Assembly (NCBI GenBank): GCA_018780805.1
Contig: JADMJD010000026.1
Coordinates: 24,755 to 88,754 of the forward strand
Origin: Rubrivivax sp.
Lineage (GTDB): Bacteria > Pseudomonadota > Gammaproteobacteria > Burkholderiales > Burkholderiaceae_C
DNA: 64,000 nucleotides
Direction: 5' to 3'
Part shown: piece by piece, positions 9,990 through 20,430 of the stretch
Layout of the letters: each line of letters starts with the position of its first letter
How positions within the stretch are numbered: the stretch's first letter is position 1
Made by a program: the position numbers and the translations under genes
The notes under the pieces: generated by a model
Database searches by the model: none
The model's input: only the letters and a program-made list of their open reading frames with translations
What the model was told of the DNA's origin: nothing

Positions 9990-11372
9990 TCAGCCCATCC
10001 GGCCCAGCACCTCTGCGTTGGCCGCACAGACCGCACGGAACCCGGAACTGATGCGTGCATCGGCAGCGGCTGCCATCCAGAACGCGTCGGCGGCCTGCGC
10101 TGCCGGCGCCCAGAGTTCGCGCTCGGCTGGCAGCGGCAACCGAGGGCGGAATTCGCGGGGCGGCAGCTCGACGCCCCGCGAAGGCGCATACAGCATGGGC
10201 AGCATGTCGTACGCCGGCGCCAGCTGCAGCCCCGGCCTGCCATCGGCGGCCCTGGGTTGGAACGACAAGTTTCCGTCGTGCATGTCGTTGTTGCCGATGA
10301 GCTGCCCGAAGTGCCACAAGAGTGCGGTCAGTCGCACGTCATCGGCAGACAGCCAACCTCGGGCGCCAAGCCGGCGCGCTGCCTCGACCCAAGGGGCGCC
10401 TGCCAGACCGAACAGGGCACCGTTCAGCGACGCCCACGACGTCACCCCGGAACGACCGTACAGACCGTGGCGGTCGAATCGCTCGACCTCCAGGAAAGTT
10501 CGGCCGCCGCCGCGGTGGATGCGTGACGTGGTGGCCTGGATGCCCAGGTGGGTCGTCAACACCTGGCTGGCGAGGTGCTCGCACACCAGCAGGTCGGACC
10601 AGCGTTGCGTCCCCGGCGAGTCGTCCGAGCCGGAGAACTTGACGAGCATGTGCTGGATGCGGCCATCGTGATTTCGTCGAACCGCCTCGAACTTCGGGAA
10701 CTCGCCGCCGGCTGAGTAGCCGACGAGGCCTTGGGCCATGGCACTGGCGGCCAGGCGCTCGTAGCTCTGCGGGACCATGGCATCGTCCACGAGCGGCTCG
10801 TCCCGCCCAAGACGCCCGGCCTGGACCCGCTCGAGCCACTGGCGGCAGGCCGGCTCACCCAGGATGAGGTCACCCAGCAGGTCGGTTCCCAGCAGCGACA
10901 TCGCATGCAGGGCGTGGTCGTCGGACCAGACATTCGGGTCTTCGGGAACCTGCAGCAAGGCCGCGTGGTGGCGGGCGAAGTTGCGACCCAGGAAGCCCTG
11001 CGGGCGCATGTCCTGGAGCGGATACGGCAGCCCGTCGAACCAGCCCGCCTGCCTCTCTTCATCCAGGGGCCAGCCGAAGTCGGCGAGGAATTCGGCAGCG
11101 CATCCGTCCGGGTAGGTCAAGTCCAGACGAGCGACTTCCTGGATGCCCCCTTGTTCGTCGACGCGATACAGCGGAAGTGCCGCCTTCGACCCGCGAAGCG
11201 CACGCCGCGCGGCGTACGTCGTGCGGCGCGCACTGCCGCGCGCAATGACGTCGTCACCGGCGGCGCGCACCTGACGCATCAGCGTCGCGCGGCTGACGTC
11301 CAGGGCCTTGAGCAACCTACCTGCCTGCAGGCGGCCGCGAAGGCGCAGAATTGTGACGAGGTCGGGGCTCAT
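9990..11372 (-). CDS. HipA family kinase-like protein with N-terminal winged HTH (YjjJ-like)
   Basis: KFSGSDDSPGTQRWSDLLVCEHLA, IHRGGGRTFLEVERFDRHG, HFGQLIGNNDMHDGNLSF kinase motifs; N-terminal HTH. Confidence 0.85.
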   Translation of the reverse strand: MSPDLVTILRLRGRLQAGRLLKALDVSRATLMRQVRAAGDDVIARGSARRTTYAARRALRGSKAALPLYRVDEQGGIQEVARLDLTYPDGCAAEFLADFGWPLDEERQAGWFDGLPYPLQDMRPQGFLGRNFARHHAALLQVPEDPNVWSDDHALHAMSLLGTDLLGDLILGEPACRQWLERVQAGRLGRDEPLVDDAMVPQSYERLAASAMAQGLVGYSAGGEFPKFEAVRRNHDGRIQHMLVKFSGSDDSPGTQRWSDLLVCEHLASQVLTTHLGIQATTSRIHRGGGRTFLEVERFDRHGLYGRSGVTSWASLNGALFGLAGAPWVEAARRLGARGWLSADDVRLTALLWHFGQLIGNNDMHDGNLSFQPRAADGRPGLQLAPAYDMLPMLYAPSRGVELPPREFRPRLPLPAERELWAPAAQAADAFWMAAAADARISSGFRAVCAANAEVLGRMG

Positions 11373-11374
11373 CT

Positions 11375-11462
11375 TGAAACGATTGGAGGCTGAAACTCGG
11401 ACATTGAACTGCTCGCAGTGGTGAATCCACCGGAGATGTGGTGAAACGATATTTGAAACGAT
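11375..11462 (-). promoter_or_regulatory. Three exact TGAAACGAT repeats upstream of HipA/YjjJ-like gene (candidate autoregulatory operators)
   Basis: Exact copies at 11375-11383, 11442-11450, 11454-11462; partial TGAAACTC at 11391. Confidence 0.55.
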
Positions 11463-11756
11463 TTTAGCCTGGCGGCTATGCGCTTGCGCCGGCAGTACTC
11501 GAGCGGGCGGCAGACTGGAAGGCGTGTCCTGGCGAGCCATCACCAGTTGGGCGGCACCGAACGACCACCAGCCAAGGTGAAGCGCAAAGCACCTCAAGCA
11601 CCTCGGCAACGTCCAGGGCACGCACAACTGGAACCAGCAGCTGCCGTGGTGCAGTTGGACGTATCGCAGGAGAGCTTCTCAGGTGACGTTGTGGATCCGT
11701 CACGGGCGTGCTCTGGCGCTCAGATGTACACCATTTTTGCGCCACCCAGAAAGACG

Positions 11757-11797
11757 AAGCCCCTGACTGCAAGATCTCTCTTGCGAATCAAGGGCTT
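11757..11797 (-). terminator. Intrinsic terminator-like hairpin, probably the original terminator of the tRNA-Ser
   Basis: AAGCCCCTGA...TCAAGGGCTT outer arms and GCAAGA-TCTC-TCTTGC inner arms; lies just outside the att repeat. Confidence 0.6.
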
Positions 11798-11807
11798 GGC
11801 TTTTGGT

Positions 11808-11821
11808 TGGCGGAGTCGAAG
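11808..11821 (+). repeat. Distal att site, copy of tRNA-Ser 3' end
   Basis: TGGCGGAGTCGAAG identical to 20338-20351. Confidence 0.8.
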
Positions 11822-11867
11822 TCTGTCAAGACCCGCATGGATGCTCGCTCTCCGGGCCGTGGCGTCT

Positions 11868-11888
11868 TCTACCCACGCGCCACCCACA
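11868..11888 (+). repeat. Candidate integrase arm-type site (distal end)
   Basis: TCTACCCACGCGCCACCCACA, 19/21 identical and same orientation as 20168-20188. Confidence 0.45.
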
Positions 11889-11896
11889 CGGAAAGA

Positions 11897-12241
11897 TCAG
11901 GCGTCGGACGCTGCCGGCGCGGCCCCATCATCCGGCCCCGCGTAGGTCCGATTCGAATCCTCCGGTCGCATCCGAACCGAACCGCCCCAGGCCGTAAGCA
12001 CACTGGCCAGCTCGACGGGGGCGGGGGAGTCTTGTGCGGGCATGGCCAGCGCCAACACGGCGGGCCGCTTGGCGGTGTCACCGAGGCGCAGCAACTCGCC
12101 ACGACTGAGCATGCGGCTCGCGGTCATGCGGGCCAGCGCGTAGCCTACGCGGGCCCGCCTGGCCAGTTCCTTGACCGTGCAAGGGCCGTCTGCAGCCGCA
12201 GCTCGCAGTGCCAGAGTGATTTCGCCACAAGGTCGTGCCAC
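11897..12241 (-). CDS. Winged-HTH-like hypothetical protein of the island
   Basis: ITLALRAAAADGPCTVKELARRARVGYALARMTASRMLSRGELLRLGDTAKRP resembles a wHTH. Confidence 0.55.
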   Translation of the reverse strand: MARPCGEITLALRAAAADGPCTVKELARRARVGYALARMTASRMLSRGELLRLGDTAKRPAVLALAMPAQDSPAPVELASVLTAWGGSVRMRPEDSNRTYAGPDDGAAPAASDA

Positions 12242-12429
12242 AGGGCCAGTTTACGGCTGGCACGACAGGCAGAGAGTGGTGTGGGTGAGGCAGTACGCAC
12301 AGCCCCTTCGTAGCTGCACCCGATGCCCCTCGCCGCGCATCTTGCGTGGCCGGTGCCCGTCATGGGTTGGAAGCGCTCGCGCCAGGCTATGGCGGGCTGT
12401 CTCGCCTAGCGCGGTCCCGTGACATGGAC

Positions 12430-12894
12430 TCAGCTGAAGTACAGCTCCAAGCGGGCCGCTGCGTCGCTCAGCACGGCAAAGCAGCCTACTTCGATCAGTC
12501 GGCCCGGGATACCGAGGTCGGACCGGCCAACGGACAACTCGAATTCTTCGACTGCAACGGTGCCGCTCGCCGCCGTGTTGTCGTAGATCCTCAAAGTGCC
12601 GGCAGCCGTACCGCAGAAGATGGATTCGAGGCGGCGGCCGACCGCCCCACCCACCAAGCCCGAAGACGACACAAGCAATTTCAAGCCCGGCGCCATCAAC
12701 TGCTGAATCTTTCCGTCCTGCCGACGCACTTCACCGCGATTCAGCGCCAGCACCTGTGTATAGCTCAGGACCGGCACTTCGCTGTACATGGCGCGCGCCT
12801 GGCCTGAGCAAATGAGCCGGAGTTCTTCATCCGGCAGGAAGTGGCTGTAGCAGCCTGGCGCCAGGCCCTCGTGAGGGTAGAGCAGCTGGATCAT
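12430..12894 (-). CDS. Hypothetical protein, possible structural/decoration-like beta protein
   Basis: Immediately downstream of the capsid gene on the same strand; GTLRIYDNTAASGTVAVEEFE...LSDAAARLELYFS. Confidence 0.55.
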   Translation of the reverse strand: MIQLLYPHEGLAPGCYSHFLPDEELRLICSGQARAMYSEVPVLSYTQVLALNRGEVRRQDGKIQQLMAPGLKLLVSSSGLVGGAVGRRLESIFCGTAAGTLRIYDNTAASGTVAVEEFELSVGRSDLGIPGRLIEVGCFAVLSDAAARLELYFS

Positions 12895-12900
12895 GGCGGT

Positions 12901-14181
12901 TCACCGCAGCCCGGTGACGACGGCAAAGGCCGACGGATACCACACGCACACATCGGCACGAAGGTGGCCAATGAAACCGATTTGGCCGGTCTCGGCATAC
13001 AGCTCGTCCAGCTTCTGCAGGCTCAGGGTCTCACGGATCATCAGAGACATCTTCGTGAAGTCACCGACGTACAACTCCGAACAGTCATTGGACGTGCCTA
13101 CAGTCAAGCTGATGGGCACCTGCGAAGAGTGAACCATCTGCAAGGCCTCCAAGGCCTTGGGCATTTGCTTGGGCTGGCCGGCGGTATCTGTCGCGGACAT
13201 CAGGCGGACCCAGGAGCGCGGCGCCATCACCGCTGCCGTGGGCATGGGGGCATTGGCCTGCAGGATGTCGTCGAAGACCGACAAGATCGTGTCGTAGCCA
13301 GGACCAGCAGAGCCGTTCGGACCGCTGCCGATTGTGTAGACGCCTGCAGTGTTGAGCAGGCCGCGCGGCTCGGGCAATGTGCCACTGCCGCGAAGGCCCG
13401 TGCGGTCCAGTTCTTTAGCCAGTGCCTGGGCAATCACCAGCTCTAGCGCCGGCAGCATGTTCGGCGCATCGGCCAGCAGCTCACGCGACACCTTGAATCG
13501 GAAGCTCAGGCTCTGCGGCGTAGCAACCACGGAACGGAACGTCGGATCGCTCTCGGCAATTGCGCCCGCCTCCTGACGCCAGGCCGCCGTGGGGATCGCG
13601 TTGACAATCGCGGTCGTGATGCTCTTGGCATCGCCCACCGGATCGACAGACGCACCGGCCTGCAGGAGCGCCGAATTGGGGACCAGCGCGGCCATGATGT
13701 CGCCGAAGGTGGCACGGGGCACCGCGTGCCCACCGGCCGTGTCGGTGCCGACGCTCAAGGCCTTGGTCGCACGCTCAGTGGTCTTCATGCCAGCAATGCC
13801 CCGCAGCAGCTCATCGACGCCAATGCGGGCTTCCTCGCCCTTGCGGTAGTACGCCTTGAAGTCGGCGGCCGAACGCAGTTGAAGCACGGGCCCGTCTTGA
13901 TCGGCGGGCTTGGTGTGCATGGGAACAACCGGACCCGCGCTGGCCTTCTGTTCCAGCGTCAGCACTCGGTCGGCCAGCTCCGGCAGCTGGTGTAGCTTGT
14001 CCTCGATCTTGTCCAGGCCCTTCATCACCGTAGCCCAGTCCACGGCGCCAGCGCTGGCCATCATCAAGGGCACGGAAGGGTCCAGGCCAGCGGACAGCCA
14101 CACTGCGGACAAGAGTGCGGCGGTCAGGATCAACAGGCACACGCGGGTGTGCGTCAGATGTTGTTTCATACGGTCTTTCAT
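12901..14181 (-). CDS. HK97-type phage major capsid protein with N-terminal hydrophobic segment
   Basis: Delta-domain-like coiled coil, ATFGDIMAALVPNSALLQAGASV, FRFKVSRELLADAPNMLPALELVIAQALAKELDRTGLRGSGTLPEPRGLLNTAGV; N-terminus MKDRMKQHLTHTRVCLLILTAALLSAVWLSAG. Confidence 0.8.
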   Translation of the reverse strand: MKDRMKQHLTHTRVCLLILTAALLSAVWLSAGLDPSVPLMMASAGAVDWATVMKGLDKIEDKLHQLPELADRVLTLEQKASAGPVVPMHTKPADQDGPVLQLRSAADFKAYYRKGEEARIGVDELLRGIAGMKTTERATKALSVGTDTAGGHAVPRATFGDIMAALVPNSALLQAGASVDPVGDAKSITTAIVNAIPTAAWRQEAGAIAESDPTFRSVVATPQSLSFRFKVSRELLADAPNMLPALELVIAQALAKELDRTGLRGSGTLPEPRGLLNTAGVYTIGSGPNGSAGPGYDTILSVFDDILQANAPMPTAAVMAPRSWVRLMSATDTAGQPKQMPKALEALQMVHSSQVPISLTVGTSNDCSELYVGDFTKMSLMIRETLSLQKLDELYAETGQIGFIGHLRADVCVWYPSAFAVVTGLR

Positions 14182-14507
14182 GTTGAGTGGTTGATGCTGC
14201 CCACGGGCAGCGCTTGACCGTCTCCGCGGTTGCAGTCGCTGCCAGCATCCCGCCGGCCGCCGTCGCATCCCCGCATCTCGGGCTCGGGCTCAGGGCAGCT
14301 GCACGCGTTGACGGCTCCCCCGTCAATGGCACCCACTTGCCCCTCGCCCGCTGACCGAAGCGACTGCACCAGCAGCTCGAATCGATCGACTATTGCCAGC
14401 ATCCCACCGATGCGCGCAAGGACCAAATTTCGCTCACTTTCGAGCGTGGCCCGCCGCAGCTTGCGCGCCTGCACCTGGCGGCCGTCGCGGATGCGTCGGC
14501 GTATCAC
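14178..14507 (-). CDS. Hypothetical protein of the capsid module
   Basis: 109-aa ORF with 4-bp ATGA overlaps to both neighbours. Confidence 0.5.
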   Translation of the reverse strand: MIRRRIRDGRQVQARKLRRATLESERNLVLARIGGMLAIVDRFELLVQSLRSAGEGQVGAIDGGAVNACSCPEPEPEMRGCDGGRRDAGSDCNRGDGQALPVGSINHST

Positions 14508-14755
14508 GGGCCCGCCGGCCCTGGCCGGGGCTGCAACGTGGAGATGATGGACCGCGCGCCCTCACGCTCGACCAGCACGAGGCGCACGGCCTCGAACTCC
14601 GGGATGGGACCGAATTCCAGGACCAGGCGCGCACCACGGCGCAACGCATAGTCAACGCTGGCCATCTGTGCCGGCTCCAGGCTGGTGGCCATGATCGTGC
14701 CGCAGCGCAAGGCGGATTCGGCCAGGTTGCGGAAGCAGCTTTCCAATTCACTCAT
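14504..14755 (-). CDS. Small hypothetical protein of the capsid module
   Basis: MSELESCFRNLAESALRCGTIM..., 83 aa; ATGA overlap with next gene. Confidence 0.5.
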   Translation of the reverse strand: MSELESCFRNLAESALRCGTIMATSLEPAQMASVDYALRRGARLVLEFGPIPEFEAVRLVLVEREGARSIISTLQPRPGPAGP

Positions 14756-14891
14756 TGCATGTACCTCTCGGTGTTGTTCCTGCAGACAGGCAGGCGTCTG
14801 CACACGTCCGTGTCGCGGCCTCGACTGAGAGGCCGCGACGGCTCGTCGTCGTCGGCATCGCCGCCAGCGCCCCTACGCGCCGACGCCCCCG

Positions 14892-14990
14892 CATCGTTTG
14901 CATTGATTCAAGGGACCACTCCCCCTCATGCATGCGCAGGCGCGCGCCATGCGCATACGCATGAGGGGGGAGTGGTCCCGTGAAACGATG
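14892..14990. repeat. Long quasi-palindrome A
   Basis: GGGACCACTCCCCCTCATGC (14912-14931) pairs with GCATGAGGGGGGAGTGGTCCC (14959-14979); outer CATCGTTT / AAACGATG. Confidence 0.85.
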
Positions 14991-15148
14991 AAATGCATGT
15001 GGAGTCAGGCCAGCCCCGGCCGACCTCAACCCCAGGGGGGGTAGTTCTTTCGCCTCGCAAAAGAAAGCCTGGCGTCCGGTTTCCCTAGAACAGACCCCAG
15101 ACTTTTCACCCCCCCTCACACGCCCACGTACCGCTCGCAAGCGCCCCA

Positions 15149-15250
15149 CATCGTTCTCATCGATTCGCGCCACCACTCCCCCCTCATGCATGCGCGTGTG
15201 CGCGTGACGCGCGCACGCGCATGAGGGGGAGTGGTCCCTTGAAAGAACGA
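15149..15250. repeat. Long quasi-palindrome B
   Basis: CCACTCCCCCCTCATGC / GCATGAGGGGGAGTGG with GC-rich centre; shares an exact inverted 25-mer with palindrome A. Confidence 0.85.
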
Positions 15251-15262
15251 AAACCATGCGAG

Positions 15263-16654
15263 TCACGGCAGGTCCCGATGCACCAGGCGCAACCCGGCGA
15301 CGACGTTCTTGGTACCGATCCGCTTGATGACGACACCACGGGCGGCGCCCGTCGCATCGAGCAACTCAAGGAAGTGGTTTCGGCCGAACGGGTTGCGGAA
15401 GCCGCAGGCCGACGACCAGCGGCGGTAGCTCTCGTACACCGTGGGTGTGGTGTGCTCTGCTGCAGTGGGATCGATCTCGACCCACTCCGCATCGGTCAGG
15501 AACTGCTGCAGGGGATTGGCGGCCAGGCGCCATCTATCGAGCACGGCCGCGTGTGCCGCAGTGGTGGGCAGCGCACCAGCCTGAGCAACGCGCTCAGCAC
15601 CCAGAAACGCGCTGGCCAACACGGCCGGCATCTCCCGCGCCATGATCTTCTCGAACAGCCCGGGGTCCACCCGATCAGCCGGCACGGTGTTGGCAAACCT
15701 CAGCACGCGCCAGCGCCGATAGAAGGCCTCGCTCCGATCTGTTGTGGGTGGCAGCACGTTCGATGCGAACCAGTGCGCGGCGTGGCATCTGAAGCTGAAG
15801 GGCCGGTGTGTCGGGTGCCGGCCTGCCACGAGGTTCTGCCCGGTCACGTTCTTGAACGGCGCGGCCGGGATCGGCGCATCGTCGGACAGCTCGCCCACGA
15901 CGTTGATGCGCTTTCCACCCAGCGCGGCTACGTGGTACTCATGACCCCAGCTGGCAGGAGACACGGCACTTACAGCCTCAGGCGGGAAGGTGTGTTCCAG
16001 CACGCGCTGCAACAGACTCTTGCCACTGCGCTCTCTGCCAAGCATCAGCAGCACCGTCTGTAGCCGGGGCATCAGACCGAACAGTGACGCCCCAACGGCC
16101 TGCCACCACAGGTCTGTCTGCCCTGCCGGATCGTCGCCCTCGAACGCCTGCGACAACACGCCGTCCAGCAATGTGGCCTCGGCCTCGAAGTCCGGTGCGA
16201 ACGGGAGTGCAAACGTCTGCCGATAGTCGAGCGCCAACGGGACAACCTCGACATGCCCGGCAGCGGTCAGCCGATGGAACCCACCAGGCGAGACAACGCC
16301 CAACGGCGCATCATCAAAGAACCCCTCGACTTCACTCAGCGCGGCCAGGTGCTCGACTATTTGCTTGAAGTCCGAATGCTTCTTGCACAGCTTTTTGCCG
16401 CCGTGCAATTCAGCCACCAGGACCTGCATGCGCTCATGGCTCATCTGTCGCCATAGGCCGTCCCCACCAGGCGCGAAGAAGGCGCCATTCGCGTAGACAG
16501 GCTCATGGATGCCTTCAGCCAGGTAGGCACGCACCGCAAGGGCAATGGTGTGGTGCGTTGCGCTGTCCCCGTCCGCCTTCGTCTCGGCATCGGCCTGGCG
16601 CTGCCGCTGGCGGGCTACCGCCAGGTCGGCCACCTTGTCAGTGTCAGCGGGCAA
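15263..16654 (-). CDS. P4/D5-type phage or plasmid primase-helicase
   Basis: LLMLGRERSGKSLLQRVLEHTF Walker A, LGGKRINVVGELSDDAPI, FKNVTGQNLVAGRHPTHRPFSFRCHAAHWFASNVLPPTTDRSEAFYRRWRVLRFANTVP. Confidence 0.88.
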   Translation of the reverse strand: MPADTDKVADLAVARQRQRQADAETKADGDSATHHTIALAVRAYLAEGIHEPVYANGAFFAPGGDGLWRQMSHERMQVLVAELHGGKKLCKKHSDFKQIVEHLAALSEVEGFFDDAPLGVVSPGGFHRLTAAGHVEVVPLALDYRQTFALPFAPDFEAEATLLDGVLSQAFEGDDPAGQTDLWWQAVGASLFGLMPRLQTVLLMLGRERSGKSLLQRVLEHTFPPEAVSAVSPASWGHEYHVAALGGKRINVVGELSDDAPIPAAPFKNVTGQNLVAGRHPTHRPFSFRCHAAHWFASNVLPPTTDRSEAFYRRWRVLRFANTVPADRVDPGLFEKIMAREMPAVLASAFLGAERVAQAGALPTTAAHAAVLDRWRLAANPLQQFLTDAEWVEIDPTAAEHTTPTVYESYRRWSSACGFRNPFGRNHFLELLDATGAARGVVIKRIGTKNVVAGLRLVHRDLP

Positions 16655-17072
16655 GGCGCAGCTCCTCCATCAACGCGACGCAGCGGGCCTTTGCCAGCCC
16701 TGCGCGGCGCCGGTCGGCATCGGTGGGGGGCTTGCCTGCCTCCAGGTCCGTCAAGAGCACCCAGGCCACGCCCAGCTCGGCCTGCAGGGCTTCGATGACC
16801 TCGCGCGCAGTGAACGGCTTACGCTCAGCCGGCCGGCCTTGCCCGGGGCCCTGGCCTGGCGGGAACAGGTCTTCCATCGTCAAGCCCAGCGCGCGCACGA
16901 TTTCCTCAACCTCGCACTGTGCAAAGCAGTGGAGCAGCACCACCCCGTTGTCCAGCTCGCGCACACTCAAAGATGCGCGCCGGTCACGGTGCGCTGGGCA
17001 CTTGCACATCCACCGGCCGGGGCCCCTGACGCGCGGTTTCTCCAGTCGCGCAAACACGGCTTCGATGGTCAT
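16644..17072 (-). CDS. CHC2-type zinc-finger primase domain protein
   Basis: CKCPAHRDRRASLSVRELDNGVVLLHCFAQCEVEEIVRALGLTMEDLFP. Confidence 0.75.
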   Translation of the reverse strand: MTIEAVFARLEKPRVRGPGRWMCKCPAHRDRRASLSVRELDNGVVLLHCFAQCEVEEIVRALGLTMEDLFPPGQGPGQGRPAERKPFTAREVIEALQAELGVAWVLLTDLEAGKPPTDADRRRAGLAKARCVALMEELRLAR

Positions 17073-17118
17073 GTGCAGACGCCCGCACAGCCACACGGCA
17101 CGATCAAAGACCGAAGGA

Positions 17119-17280
17119 TCACTTGACCCCCTTCGATGCTGTGCGCTGCGCGCTGGCCTGCAGGCGCTTCAACTGCCTGCGCTGCGCCCTGTTCTGCGGC
17201 TCGACCACGTAGGACAGCGGGCCAGGCCGACGCATCAACTCGACCAGCTCGACGCGGCGCGTTGAACGGCTGCGGCTCAT
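17119..17280 (-). CDS. Small hypothetical protein (53 aa; below ORF-track cutoff)
   Basis: Manual translation MSRSRSTRRVELVELMRRPGPLSYVVEPQNRAQRRQLKRLQASAQRTASKGVK; ATGA overlap with the AlpA-like gene. Confidence 0.45.
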   Translation of the reverse strand: MSRSRSTRRVELVELMRRPGPLSYVVEPQNRAQRRQLKRLQASAQRTASKGVK

Positions 17281-17609
17281 GCGCGGCCCCCTCCACGCAG
17301 CTCATTGATTCGCCGACGCAACTGCGTCGGCTCGGGGTTCGGCTGCGCCTGGCGCGGCATGTTCAACACTGCGGTTTCCAGCTCAGACCGAACCCATCGC
17401 AGGATGCGCGGACCACACACCACGGGGCGCGGCATCCAGGGCGCCAGGCGCAGCTTGTGGAAGGTCCGCTCGCTGACGCCGAACACCTCGCGCGCCGCTT
17501 GTTCTGCGGTCAGCAGGGCCGTCGGCTTGCCTCGGCTCTCGATGGCAGCCAGGCGGGCCGGGTTGACTGGGCCCGCGCCGTTGGTCTTCGATTCGTCGGA
17601 TAGGTGCAT
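17277..17609 (-). CDS. AlpA/excisionase-like HTH regulator
   Basis: ALLTAEQAAREVFGVSERTFHKLRLAPWMPRPVVCGPRILRWVRSEL. Confidence 0.7.
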   Translation of the reverse strand: MHLSDESKTNGAGPVNPARLAAIESRGKPTALLTAEQAAREVFGVSERTFHKLRLAPWMPRPVVCGPRILRWVRSELETAVLNMPRQAQPNPEPTQLRRRINELRGGGRA

Positions 17610-17718
17610 CTGGCTTCCTCAAAGCGGCATCTAGCCGCGTTGAGGCAACCTTAGGGGGCGCCCGGCCCTTCGTTTGTGCGGGAAATTCGGCGCGGCCCGC
17701 GCCGTCTGTGCGGGAAAT

Positions 17719-18249
17719 TCAGCGGCGGTTGCGGCGCGGCTTTGGCATCGCGCCGGCACCCTCACGGGCTTTGATCGCCGCAGCGTTGCACTCGTCGTTC
17801 GACTCGACCAGGCCGCCCCTTCCACTGCGTACATGAGACTTCAGCACAAACCCGGCGGCCAACGCGCCAGCCCGGCTGGCGAAGCGGGCTGGCGCCTGCA
17901 TCTCCCACCTCGAACACCAGGCGCCAAACTCAGCGCTGCTGCTGCGCGCCTTTTCTGCGCTCACGTACCACTGCCGCAGGGTTTCAGGGTCCGTCAGCCG
18001 CGCCAGCACGGTGCCCTGGCTGTCTGCGATGGTGATGCCTCGCTCGCGCGTCCATCGGCCATCAGGGGTGCGCAGCTGGTGGCGCTCAATGATGGCGCGG
18101 CAGGCCGACAGCACACCACTGGCGCCCCGGTAGGCGATCTCCTCCCGCACGACGCGCCAGGCGTGGAACATCAAGGCCGGCCGGCTGCGCGTTGTACCGC
18201 TGCCAGCCGGCCGGCCTCTCTTCTTGGGCGAGTCCTCAGACACGGCCAT
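17719..18249 (-). CDS. Hypothetical protein with AT-hook-like N-terminus
   Basis: KKRGRPAGSG; intact 176-aa ORF collinear with the island genes. Confidence 0.5.
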   Translation of the reverse strand: MAVSEDSPKKRGRPAGSGTTRSRPALMFHAWRVVREEIAYRGASGVLSACRAIIERHQLRTPDGRWTRERGITIADSQGTVLARLTDPETLRQWYVSAEKARSSSAEFGAWCSRWEMQAPARFASRAGALAAGFVLKSHVRSGRGGLVESNDECNAAAIKAREGAGAMPKPRRNRR

Positions 18250-18257
18250 GCCCTCTG

Positions 18258-18692
18258 TTATCCGTGTCGAAGACCACGAATCAATTTCTCCTCTTCTGCC
18301 GCACCGGCAACCTCCAACAGCCCCCGCGCGTGCTGCGCCATGTTCATCACAATGAACAGCATATCCGCCACCTCCCCGGGTGTGCCCAGCAGCCCTGACG
18401 GGTGCTCACCAAGTTTTGTGGCGTGGCTCGCCTCGTAGTTGAGCAGACACCCCAGCGTCTCGCACAGGTGGTCAATGCCGCCAAGGACTACTTCCGCCGA
18501 CTCGCGCTGCATGCTCAACGTATACAGGTCGTCATCGGACATGTTCGCCTTGCCTCGCTCAAACAGACCCGACATCAGATCCTGTGTCTTCGGTCCCAGG
18601 CTCCCGAACGCAGCCCCTGTGCAGACGCCTGCGTCGGCAGCGGGCACGGTACGCGACACAATAGTTTCAGCCTTCATCGTTGATCCAGTCAT
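18258..18692 (-). CDS. Hypothetical protein
   Basis: Intact 144-aa ORF collinear with the island genes; alternative internal start MKAET. Confidence 0.5.
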   Translation of the reverse strand: MTGSTMKAETIVSRTVPAADAGVCTGAAFGSLGPKTQDLMSGLFERGKANMSDDDLYTLSMQRESAEVVLGGIDHLCETLGCLLNYEASHATKLGEHPSGLLGTPGEVADMLFIVMNMAQHARGLLEVAGAAEEEKLIRGLRHG

Positions 18693-18794
18693 CGTTGATG
18701 GTCAGGGCCGGTGCATTGCTTCATCAATGCACCGGCCCGCCTTGCCGCTGGAACGCAGCGGCCACGCTTGCCGGCGACCGGCCGGCACGGTTCA

Positions 18795-20126
18795 TCAGGC
18801 CGCCACCAGCGCAAGCGCAGGCCTGGCCAGGTAGTCGGACCAGGCGGACAGCACGGCCCGCCGCTCAGCGTTGAACTGCGCACGCATGTAGGCCTTGCGC
18901 ACGCGGTCGCCTTCTTGGTGCGCAAGACACGCCTCGATCACATCGGGCCTGGCGGCGCCGGTTTCATTGGCCCAGGTGCTGAAGGTCGCGCGACACAGGC
19001 CGTGCACGGTCGTGCGGCCCTTCAGGCCCATGCGGTCGCGCAGGGTCAACATGGCCATGTTGCTCATGGTGGCGTCAGCCTTCCAGGCACTCGGGAAGAC
19101 CCACCGCGCGTGCTGCCCGGCCTGGCCCTTCACAACCTCCAGCGCCCTGGCCGACAGGTAGACCAGGTGATCTTCGCCGGCCTTCATCTTTGCCCCTGGC
19201 ACCAGCCACGTGCCGGCGGTCAGGTCGAACTCTGACCACTCAGCGGTCAGTGCTTCGCTGGTGCGGGCCACGGTCAGGATGGCGAACTCGAAACACCGTG
19301 CGGCCGTGCCTGGCCAGGAACGCAACCGCAGCACCACAGCAGGCGCCTCGGTGTAGGCCGACGCTGCCAGGCTCCCGGCCTCTTTGGCCGGGGCCTCCTC
19401 GCGCATCTTGCGGCGGATCGCGGCGGCCGGGTTGCTGGTGGCATGCCCGTGGAACATCGCATCTTCAAAAATGGAGTCCAAGCGCTGGCGAATGCGCCGC
19501 AGCGTTTCCGGCACGCGGTCGCCCTTCAGGTTGCGCGCCCGCTCATGCGGACGCACCTTGAGCAACGCGGACAGCAGGGCGGGCGGCGTGATGCTGTCCA
19601 CAGGCGCATGCCAGACCTCGGGGGCAATGTGGTTCTCCAAGCTGGCGATCCATTGCGCGGCGTGCTTGGTCGTGCGGGTGGGCTCGATGACGCGCCCGTG
19701 GTAGTCCCTGGCTACCCTGGCAAGGGTGCGGGCCTGTTCGGCCTGCAGGCGGGCCACCAGTTGCGTTTGCTGGGCATCGGCCAGGCGCTCAGCGTCGCGC
19801 CGCTTGTCGCGCTCCGCCAGCGGGTCGAGGCCGCGCCTGACCAGCTCGCGGTGCTGCGCCGCCAGGTCGCGCGCCAGGCGCATGCCCTCGCCTGCAGTCT
19901 TGATCGAATCGGCCAGCGCCGGTCCCAGGCCCATTTCTCGCCGGCGGCCGGTGGTGGCCACCGTGTACCGATAGACCCAGGACCGGGAGACCCGGCCGGT
20001 GTCGGCATCCTTGCGCACCGCCAGCAGCAGCCCGCCACCGTCTACGTGGTTGCCGGGCGGTGCCGCCATCACCTCGCGCGCCGTCAACAGGTGCAGCGCC
20101 CCGGCTGCTGCCTTCTTGCCCATCAT
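18795..20126 (-). CDS. Tyrosine-type site-specific integrase (P4/DUF4102 type)
   Basis: LTVARTSEALTAEWSEFDL, TVHGLCRATFSTWANE, R-H-R-Y layout; adjacent to tRNA att site. Confidence 0.92.
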   Translation of the reverse strand: MMGKKAAAGALHLLTAREVMAAPPGNHVDGGGLLLAVRKDADTGRVSRSWVYRYTVATTGRRREMGLGPALADSIKTAGEGMRLARDLAAQHRELVRRGLDPLAERDKRRDAERLADAQQTQLVARLQAEQARTLARVARDYHGRVIEPTRTTKHAAQWIASLENHIAPEVWHAPVDSITPPALLSALLKVRPHERARNLKGDRVPETLRRIRQRLDSIFEDAMFHGHATSNPAAAIRRKMREEAPAKEAGSLAASAYTEAPAVVLRLRSWPGTAARCFEFAILTVARTSEALTAEWSEFDLTAGTWLVPGAKMKAGEDHLVYLSARALEVVKGQAGQHARWVFPSAWKADATMSNMAMLTLRDRMGLKGRTTVHGLCRATFSTWANETGAARPDVIEACLAHQEGDRVRKAYMRAQFNAERRAVLSAWSDYLARPALALVAA

Positions 20127-20167
20127 CGCCCCCCCTGCGCGTGGGGGGAGCCGGCTGGCGCCGAACC

Positions 20168-20188
20168 TCTACCCACGCTCTACCCACA
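20168..20188 (+). repeat. Candidate integrase arm-type site (tRNA-proximal end)
   Basis: TCTACCCACGCTCTACCCACA; internal tandem TCTACCCAC; matches 11868-11888. Confidence 0.45.
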
Positions 20189-20289
20189 GAAACCGGCGCA
20201 GAGTGCGTGCACTCAAACGCGGACCAGTTGCACCGTAGGCAGTATGTGAGGAGGGAAAACAGCCGTCAAATCAACGACTTACAAAGAAA

Positions 20290-20333
20290 AATCCCTCACT
20301 GACATGCACCTTGATGCACCTCAGTGAGGGATT
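20290..20333 (-). terminator. Intrinsic terminator carried by the island just downstream of tRNA-Ser
   Basis: AATCCCTCACTGA / TCAGTGAGGGATT 13-bp perfect arms, followed on the minus strand by a TTTTTC run. Confidence 0.75.
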
Positions 20334-20337
20334 AGAC

Positions 20338-20430
20338 TGGCGGAGTCGAAGGGATTCGAACCCTTGATGCAGGTTTTGCCCACATACTCCCTTAGCAGGG
20401 GAGCACCTTCGGCCACTCGGTCACGACTCC
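20338..20430 (-). tRNA. tRNA-Ser (GCT anticodon)
   Basis: Reverse complement GGAGTCGTGACCGAGTGGCCGAAGGTGCTCCCCTGCTAAGGGAGTATGTGG...GGGTTCGAATCCCTTCGACTCCGCCA. Confidence 0.95.

Follow-up and report, generated by a model that had tools for sequence, protein, structure and literature searches.

A tRNA-Ser(GCT)-integrated element of Rubrivivax with a lone HK97-type capsid gene and a layout like that of Gram-negative phage-inducible chromosomal islands

Phage-inducible chromosomal islands (PICIs) of Gram-negative bacteria such as PmCI172 and EcCICFT073 carry lone capsid homologues (PMC6092414, PMC6893505), and their replication origin lies just 3' of the replication gene, where two sets of repeats surround an AT-rich stretch (PMC6092414). 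In the satellite SaPIbov5, the capsid homologue Ccm, 24% identical to the helper capsid protein, occupies the pentamers and constrains the shell to a small T=4 form (PMC8569155). Here we describe an 8.54-kb element of Rubrivivax sp. that is integrated at tRNA-Ser(GCT) and encodes an integrase, replication proteins and a single HK97-fold capsid protein. The element was analysed within a stretch of 64,000 nucleotides, hereafter the window (assembly GCA_018780805.1, contig JADMJD010000026.1, our C88, positions 24,755 to 88,754), from a genome of 5.18 Mb in 246 contigs that is estimated to be 92% complete. By its layout the element appears PICI-like, and its capsid protein is of the PF05065 type. 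The reading that we favour, with moderate confidence, is that of a helper-dependent phage satellite built like a Gram-negative PICI, whose capsid protein co-assembles with that of the helper into a small head.

The element is enclosed by an exact 14-bp repeat, TGGCGGAGTCGAAG, of which the window holds two exact copies only; their positions, 11808-11821 and 20338-20351, are those that an earlier sequence-only reading of this stretch had reported, and the latter forms the 3' terminus of tRNA-Ser(GCT), the sole tRNA found in the window by ARAGORN. A first-order Markov estimate gives about 0.0003 exact plus-strand copies by chance in 64 kb. We searched 60 genomes of the genus with the tRNA-Ser/lysC region as query and found the empty site which that reading had proposed as a check. 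In a same-genus relative (G056, locus L008), the left flank of the window (11716-11821) has a counterpart of 83% identity over 107 bp that joins tRNA-Ser directly at the repeat and keeps the tRNA terminator hairpin. The insertion therefore lies exactly at the 14-bp repeat, and the proposal of a tRNA-Ser-inserted element with exact boundaries stands. The claim that the integrase abuts the tRNA does not, since its start lies 212 bp from the tRNA and the gene points away from it. In having an integrase of its own and well-defined attachment (att) sites, marked by the 14-bp repeat and the empty site of the relative, the element is as expected of a Gram-negative PICI. The GC content of the element is 66.2%, versus 70.5% and 68.9% on its two sides, and the other islands found at this tRNA-Ser site are satellites only (G052, L076), the integrase in G052 being 61% identical to that of the window. 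On the tRNA side, the element carries a hairpin terminator of its own, which would stand in for the displaced tRNA-Ser terminator. The native tRNA-Ser terminator of another genome, G018 (L056:6784-6950), resembles this element-borne terminator (about 76% over 90 bp), which looks as if it had been acquired from a G018-like host. Just beyond the distal repeat (window 9990-11627) lies a HipA-like kinase gene (PF07804, 7e-17), which is absent beside the empty site of G056.

Every gene of the element with homologues lies on the minus strand, in keeping with what had been noticed from the sequence, and all main frames are intact (Table 1). From the tRNA, the order is integrase, two proteins without family match, an AlpA-like protein, a 53-aa protein, a CHC2-type protein, a D5/DUF5906 primase-helicase and a 460-bp non-coding stretch, followed by two small proteins, the capsid protein, a 154-aa protein and a 114-aa winged-helix-like protein. 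Of the earlier calls, those of AlpA and CHC2 are weak in Pfam, where both fall below the cut-off (HTH_17 with E=0.11 and CHC2 with E=0.09, respectively), and are supported by PHROGs (phrog_66, 5e-4; phrog_6088, 3e-13); relatives encode a clear PF05930 protein. The D5/DUF5906 protein is 71% identical in L078, and the 109-aa basic protein can be aligned with its counterparts in L078 and L054. No PADLOC match indicative of defence cargo was obtained in the element. As a simple gene caller mislabels antisense frames in such GC-rich DNA, family maps were drawn by homology and strand.

The start codon of the capsid gene overlaps the stop codon of the preceding 109-aa gene (ATGA), and the two genes are translationally coupled. 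A profile of 23 capsid relatives matches HK97 gp5 structures, and the AlphaFold2 model (mean predicted local distance difference test score, pLDDT, of 77.5) is closest to the HK97 prohead. The N-terminus (window 14061-14181) bears a strongly hydrophobic 19-residue stretch (Kyte-Doolittle 2.2) that relatives lack, and the true start may be Met-41. The sequence-only reading had spoken of a capsid module; one recognisable capsid gene is there, and it is not part of a module. Neither Pfam and PHROGs nor our home-made hidden Markov models (HMMs) revealed portal, protease, large terminase, connector, HNH or tail genes in the element. It is therefore not a self-sufficient temperate phage, which would carry portal, large terminase and tail genes, and such parts would have to come from a helper. 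The 154-aa protein encoded directly after the capsid protein sits where EcCICFT073 has a head-decoration gene; it has no match among families, phages, IMG/VR or PDB, and its AlphaFold2 model is unusable (pLDDT 34). The 114-aa winged-helix-like gene is 45-47% identical to the same post-capsid genes in L078 and L081 and occupies the small-terminase place of some relatives.

With the single capsid sequence as query, neither genome nor viral collections gave a match; with the capsid alignment, 24 genome loci and 66 IMG/VR loci were recovered. More than 20 loci, mostly from Burkholderiales, share the capsid clade of the window. Elements with both ends defined span 7.8-10.5 kb and each lies at a tRNA, the targets across the family being tRNA-Ser (GCT, TGA, GGA, CGA), Gly, Leu, Lys, Val, Arg and Thr. 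At tRNA-Ser, bounded elements measure 8.9 kb (TGA), 8.9 kb (GGA), 10.5 kb (GCT) and 9.3 kb (CGA), and all tRNA-Ser members have in common a 14-15 bp core ending in CCGCCA; the 10.5-kb element belongs to Ramlibacter aurantiacus and lies beside lysC, as in the window. Others were found at tRNA-Lys (7.9 kb), Gly (8.9 and 9.8 kb), Leu (9.0 kb) and Val (8.5 kb), and a Streptomyces cousin of 9.8 kb at tRNA-Thr. An additional unbiased search of 400 genomes of the taxonomic family added repeat-bounded elements at tRNA-Arg(CCG) (14 bp), tRNA-Leu (12 bp) and tRNA-Thr (52 bp), together with an element at tRNA-Arg(TCT) that has no detectable repeat and one decayed copy. Single repeats of 12-14 bp are weak by themselves, and the evidence is the recurrence of the pattern. 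The shared order is integrase, AlpA, primase/helicase and capsid, with a small terminase before or after the capsid gene in L054, L068, L070, L071 and L075. The same gene order between repeats of tRNA 3' ends, which had been named as a second check, is thus seen in relatives, and together with the empty site it supports the original inference of a small, possibly helper-dependent mobile element. A literature search, in which subscription journals were thinly covered, returned no description of satellites with this capsid clade; the family is spread across many related bacteria and was previously unlabelled.

Portal and large-terminase HMMs were made from six phages. With these, no portal, large terminase or free-standing protease was detected in any locus of the satellite clade, some of which are short contigs, while all 20 loci of the sister group (L086, L098-L116) gave a portal or large-terminase match with the same HMMs. 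None of these three was found in the independent whole-genome set; Pfam likewise assigned none of them to any open reading frame (ORF) of ten bounded or near-complete elements, nor, among the best 25 Pfam families, to the large ORFs of ten further loci. In the capsid tree, one clade of 20 tips (Shimodaira-Hasegawa-like approximate likelihood-ratio test, SH-aLRT, 100) unites the window with 19 other portal-less loci, to the exclusion of known phages and the portal-bearing group. Identity to capsids of known phages does not exceed 30%; satellite-capsid peptides were used in the locus search and not in the phage-collection search. Four loci from Streptomyces and Amycolatopsis (L082-L084, L087) have portal-less capsid genes that fall close to the root of the portal-bearing sister group, and Actinobacteria may hold capsid-only satellites too.

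The surroundings of the capsid gene vary within the family. Peptidase_S78 occurs in three members, where it is probably fused to the capsid protein. The capsid frames L068:6070-7989, L095:5553-7322 and L096:2149-3933 are 590-640 aa long; Peptidase_S78 matches occur within these sets, and the frames are likely protease-capsid fusions. In the satellite of R. aurantiacus (L076:11477-13313), the capsid gene is followed by tail-fibre and virion-structural-like genes with a collagen repeat and an F5/8 type C domain; a satellite supplying its own receptor-binding parts would be notable. The 161-aa post-capsid protein of L081 (10287-10772) resembles tape-measure proteins over their first ~160 residues and no further; interference with tail length or tail assembly is possible. 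The L079 element contains, between capsid gene and att site, a SIR2-like gene (L052:8766-9731; PADLOC SIR2, 3e-6) that is possibly defence cargo. This turnover of small terminase, winged-helix, tail-fibre and SIR2-like genes suggests different modes of attachment to helpers.

The non-coding stretch between the D5 gene and the next gene holds two long palindromes, mirror images of each other, that flank a 143-bp spacer. The stretch folds far better than shuffled sequence (z = -14.3) and is unique to this locus in the genome; a dispersed host repeat was accordingly rejected. Rfam microRNA matches on the palindrome were below gathering scores and are hairpin artefacts. A virome contig (L160:1-9444, IMG/VR, tRNA-Val) with the same replication module (D5 65%, CHC2 49%) carries the palindrome once, at the equivalent position 3' of D5, followed by an unrelated small terminase and a GpA-type large terminase, and its capsid belongs to a different clade than that of the window; L160 may reflect module swapping between satellites. 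As the palindrome is shared despite unrelated packaging genes, it goes with the replication genes and not with the packaging genes. Its position is that of the PICI origin, but the spacer is not AT-rich (65% GC), and the match to the PICI origin layout is therefore only partial. A packaging (cos/pac) site in place of a replication origin is a possibility that we consider doubtful. It would fit the location of the L160 palindrome directly before the small terminase gene, which is a usual place of cos, but it fits less well with the inheritance of the palindrome with D5, the packaging genes of the window and L160 being wholly different, or with the tested PICIs, whose origin lies 3' of the initiation gene (PMC6092414), incomplete as that match is here.

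Table 1. Features of the element and of its insertion site, in window coordinates.
Feature	Position	Strand	Basis
Chromosomal flank	11716..11807	none	Original tRNA-Ser terminator region, moved away from the tRNA by the insertion
Distal att repeat, TGGCGGAGTCGAAG	11808..11821	none	Exact copy of tRNA 3' end; junction agrees with empty site
Winged-helix-like DNA-binding protein, 114 aa	11897..12241	minus	Weak MarR_2 match
Unknown protein, 154 aa, directly after capsid gene	12430..12894	minus	
HK97-fold major capsid protein, 426 aa	12901..14181	minus	PF05065, E=1e-31
Basic protein of unknown function, 109 aa	14178..14507	minus	57% over 51 aa to same-position L054 gene
Small conserved protein of unknown function, up to 99 aa	14504..14803	minus	39% to same-position L054 gene
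Long palindrome 2, core GACCACTCCCCC...GGGGGAGTGGTC	14889..15002		Near-perfect inverted repeat; probable origin half
Long palindrome 1	15146..15260		Probable replication-origin half
D5/DUF5906 primase-helicase, 463 aa	15263..16654	minus	PF19263, 4e-7; phrog_6088 DNA primase, 2e-33
CHC2-type primase zinc-finger protein, 150 aa	16644..17096	minus	phrog_6088 N-terminus, 3e-13; 49% in L160
Small conserved protein, 53 aa	17119..17280	minus	50% over 36 aa, same position in L051/L078
AlpA-like regulator/excisionase, 110 aa	17277..17609	minus	phrog_66, 5e-4; L079 homologue at same position
Unknown protein, 176 aa	17719..18249	minus	Open frame in operon; no family match (Pfam, PHROGs)
Unknown protein, 144 aa	18258..18692	minus	Open frame in operon; no family match (Pfam, PHROGs)
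Tyrosine integrase, 443 aa	18795..20126	minus	Phage_int_M 3e-17, Phage_integrase 2e-13, Arm-DNA-bind_3 4e-10
Hairpin terminator carried by the element	20280..20337	none	Inverted repeat 20290-20333; terminator-like fold
Proximal att repeat	20338..20351		Last 14 nt of tRNA-Ser(GCT)
tRNA-Ser(GCT), integration target	20338..20430	minus	ARAGORN; Rfam RF00005

Taken as a PICI-like satellite, the element would be inserted by its integrase into the 3'-terminal 14 nt of tRNA-Ser(GCT) without disrupting the tRNA, and would be induced by an incoming phage and excised by the integrase with the AlpA-like factor. Replication of the circle by the CHC2 and D5/DUF5906 proteins is predicted to start at an origin immediately 3' of D5, at the paired palindromes. 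The helper phage would then provide portal, protease, large terminase, connectors and tail, and the single capsid protein would most likely join the helper capsid protein in the shell, as Ccm does in SaPIbov5, yielding a small head for about 8.5 kb. A homologue as divergent as Ccm is enough for mixed SaPIbov5 shells and, by analogy, would offer a precedent for capsid sharing (PMC8569155). The element thus probably spreads by hijacking an infecting phage. Several points weigh against this interpretation. Mobility, induction and particle formation are predictions from sequence, a mixed shell is not separable by sequence from an all-own shell, and the AlpA assignment is weak. No PICI-type repressor was identified in the element, nor is a small terminase or packaging factor recognisable in the window copy, though relatives have one. 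No resident HK97-type helper prophage is apparent either: in the 92%-complete host genome, PF05065 detects no capsid besides that of the element and PF04860 detects no portal, other portal families not having been searched.

A rather unlikely alternative is that the shell consists entirely of the satellite's own capsid protein and that only portal, protease, motor, connectors and tail are borrowed. The capsid gene is kept in every intact family member while its neighbours turn over, the clade is far from known phage capsids, and the protease-capsid fusions of some relatives hint at self-contained shell maturation there; the window copy, however, has neither protease nor protease fusion, an own shell would have to fit a foreign portal and connectors, and the best-studied lone satellite capsid homologue makes mixed shells (PMC8569155). 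If this were so, an unrecognised family from Burkholderiales, other Gammaproteobacteria and Actinobacterial cousins would set one-protein shells of its own on foreign portals, motors and tails, and might represent, at that same low likelihood, a capsid-swapping stage between ordinary PICIs and capsid-forming PICIs.

It seems improbable that the capsid gene is instead an interference factor which poisons helper head assembly while the element travels in normal helper heads. EcCICFT073 does have a capsid homologue and yet is apparently packaged in full-size heads with phage lambda (PMC6893505), and a SIR2-like gene follows the capsid gene in L079. Nevertheless, the tight cluster of element sizes (7.8-10.5 kb) is expected if a small head sets the limit, and the conservation of the capsid clade, its fold and N-terminal helical region being intact, suggests incorporation. 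A decayed prophage that retained integrase, replication genes and capsid by chance was rejected as very improbable: although such elements do decay (the L177 capsid has internal stops) and small genes without known function are present, all main frames of the element are intact, the same minimal set recurs with exact att repeats at independent tRNA sites in many genera, and the capsid clade is monophyletic and portal-less throughout.

On the favoured reading of a helper-dependent satellite with a shared shell, PICI-type satellites with a lone capsid gene now extend to Burkholderiales. Portal-less satellites have retained a single capsid clade for so long that it has diverged to ~50% identity across genera. 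The family also offers a natural set of variants with which to ask how head size on a foreign phage is determined by the capsid protein of a satellite, and whether that protein mixes with the helper shell or replaces it.

Among known satellites, P4-like elements (PMC8628076) share a P4-type integrase, a tRNA target, a putative AlpA and a primase-helicase with the element. The label P4-type used in the sequence-only reading is right for the integrase and goes no further, as no P4 hallmark gene is present: psu, sid, delta and epsilon had no Pfam match among the element proteins, the custom Sid profile not having been run. Phage-inducible chromosomal minimalist islands (PICMIs; PMC10803314) are likewise small and combine integrase, AlpA and DUF5906 primase, but they adjoin fis and have no capsid gene, whereas the element lies at tRNA-Ser and has one. 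Capsid-forming PICIs (PMC10690885, PMC13230959) are integrated satellites encoding a PF05065 capsid protein; they span ~14 kb, and their gene set comprises capsid, protease, portal, connectors, HNH and both terminases. Of this set, only the capsid was found in the 8.5-kb element, with no portal, prohead protease, connectors, HNH or terminases recognised. Because a capsid-forming PICI needs the full head and packaging set, the element is not one. SaPIbov5 with Ccm (PMC8569155, PMC6893505) is another satellite that encodes one HK97-type capsid homologue but no portal; it is staphylococcal and has a Gram-positive genome organisation, and the likeness is drawn from published descriptions.

Gram-negative PICIs remain the closest in build, and the EcCICFT073 sequence was read directly as a yardstick. 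Its integrase is 25% identical to that of the window over 153 aa and its D5 29% over 80 aa, while the capsids show no similarity, that of the window being PF05065 (HK97 gp5 type) and that of EcCICFT073 PF03864 (lambda gpE type); neither sequence kinship nor PICI-specific genes emerged from this comparison. The element further differs from Gram-negative PICIs in its tRNA site, its separately encoded CHC2 and D5 and the mostly Burkholderiales hosts of its family. EcCICFT073 is nonetheless arranged as integrase, AlpA, DUF5906 primase, origin region, capsid and decoration protein. Like EcCICFT073 and PmCI172 (PMC6092414), the element combines the same three integrase Pfam domains, a tentatively assigned AlpA-like protein and a DUF5906 primase-helicase with partly origin-like repeats 3' of the latter and a lone capsid gene near the far end, in a single direction of transcription and within about 8.5-11 kb.

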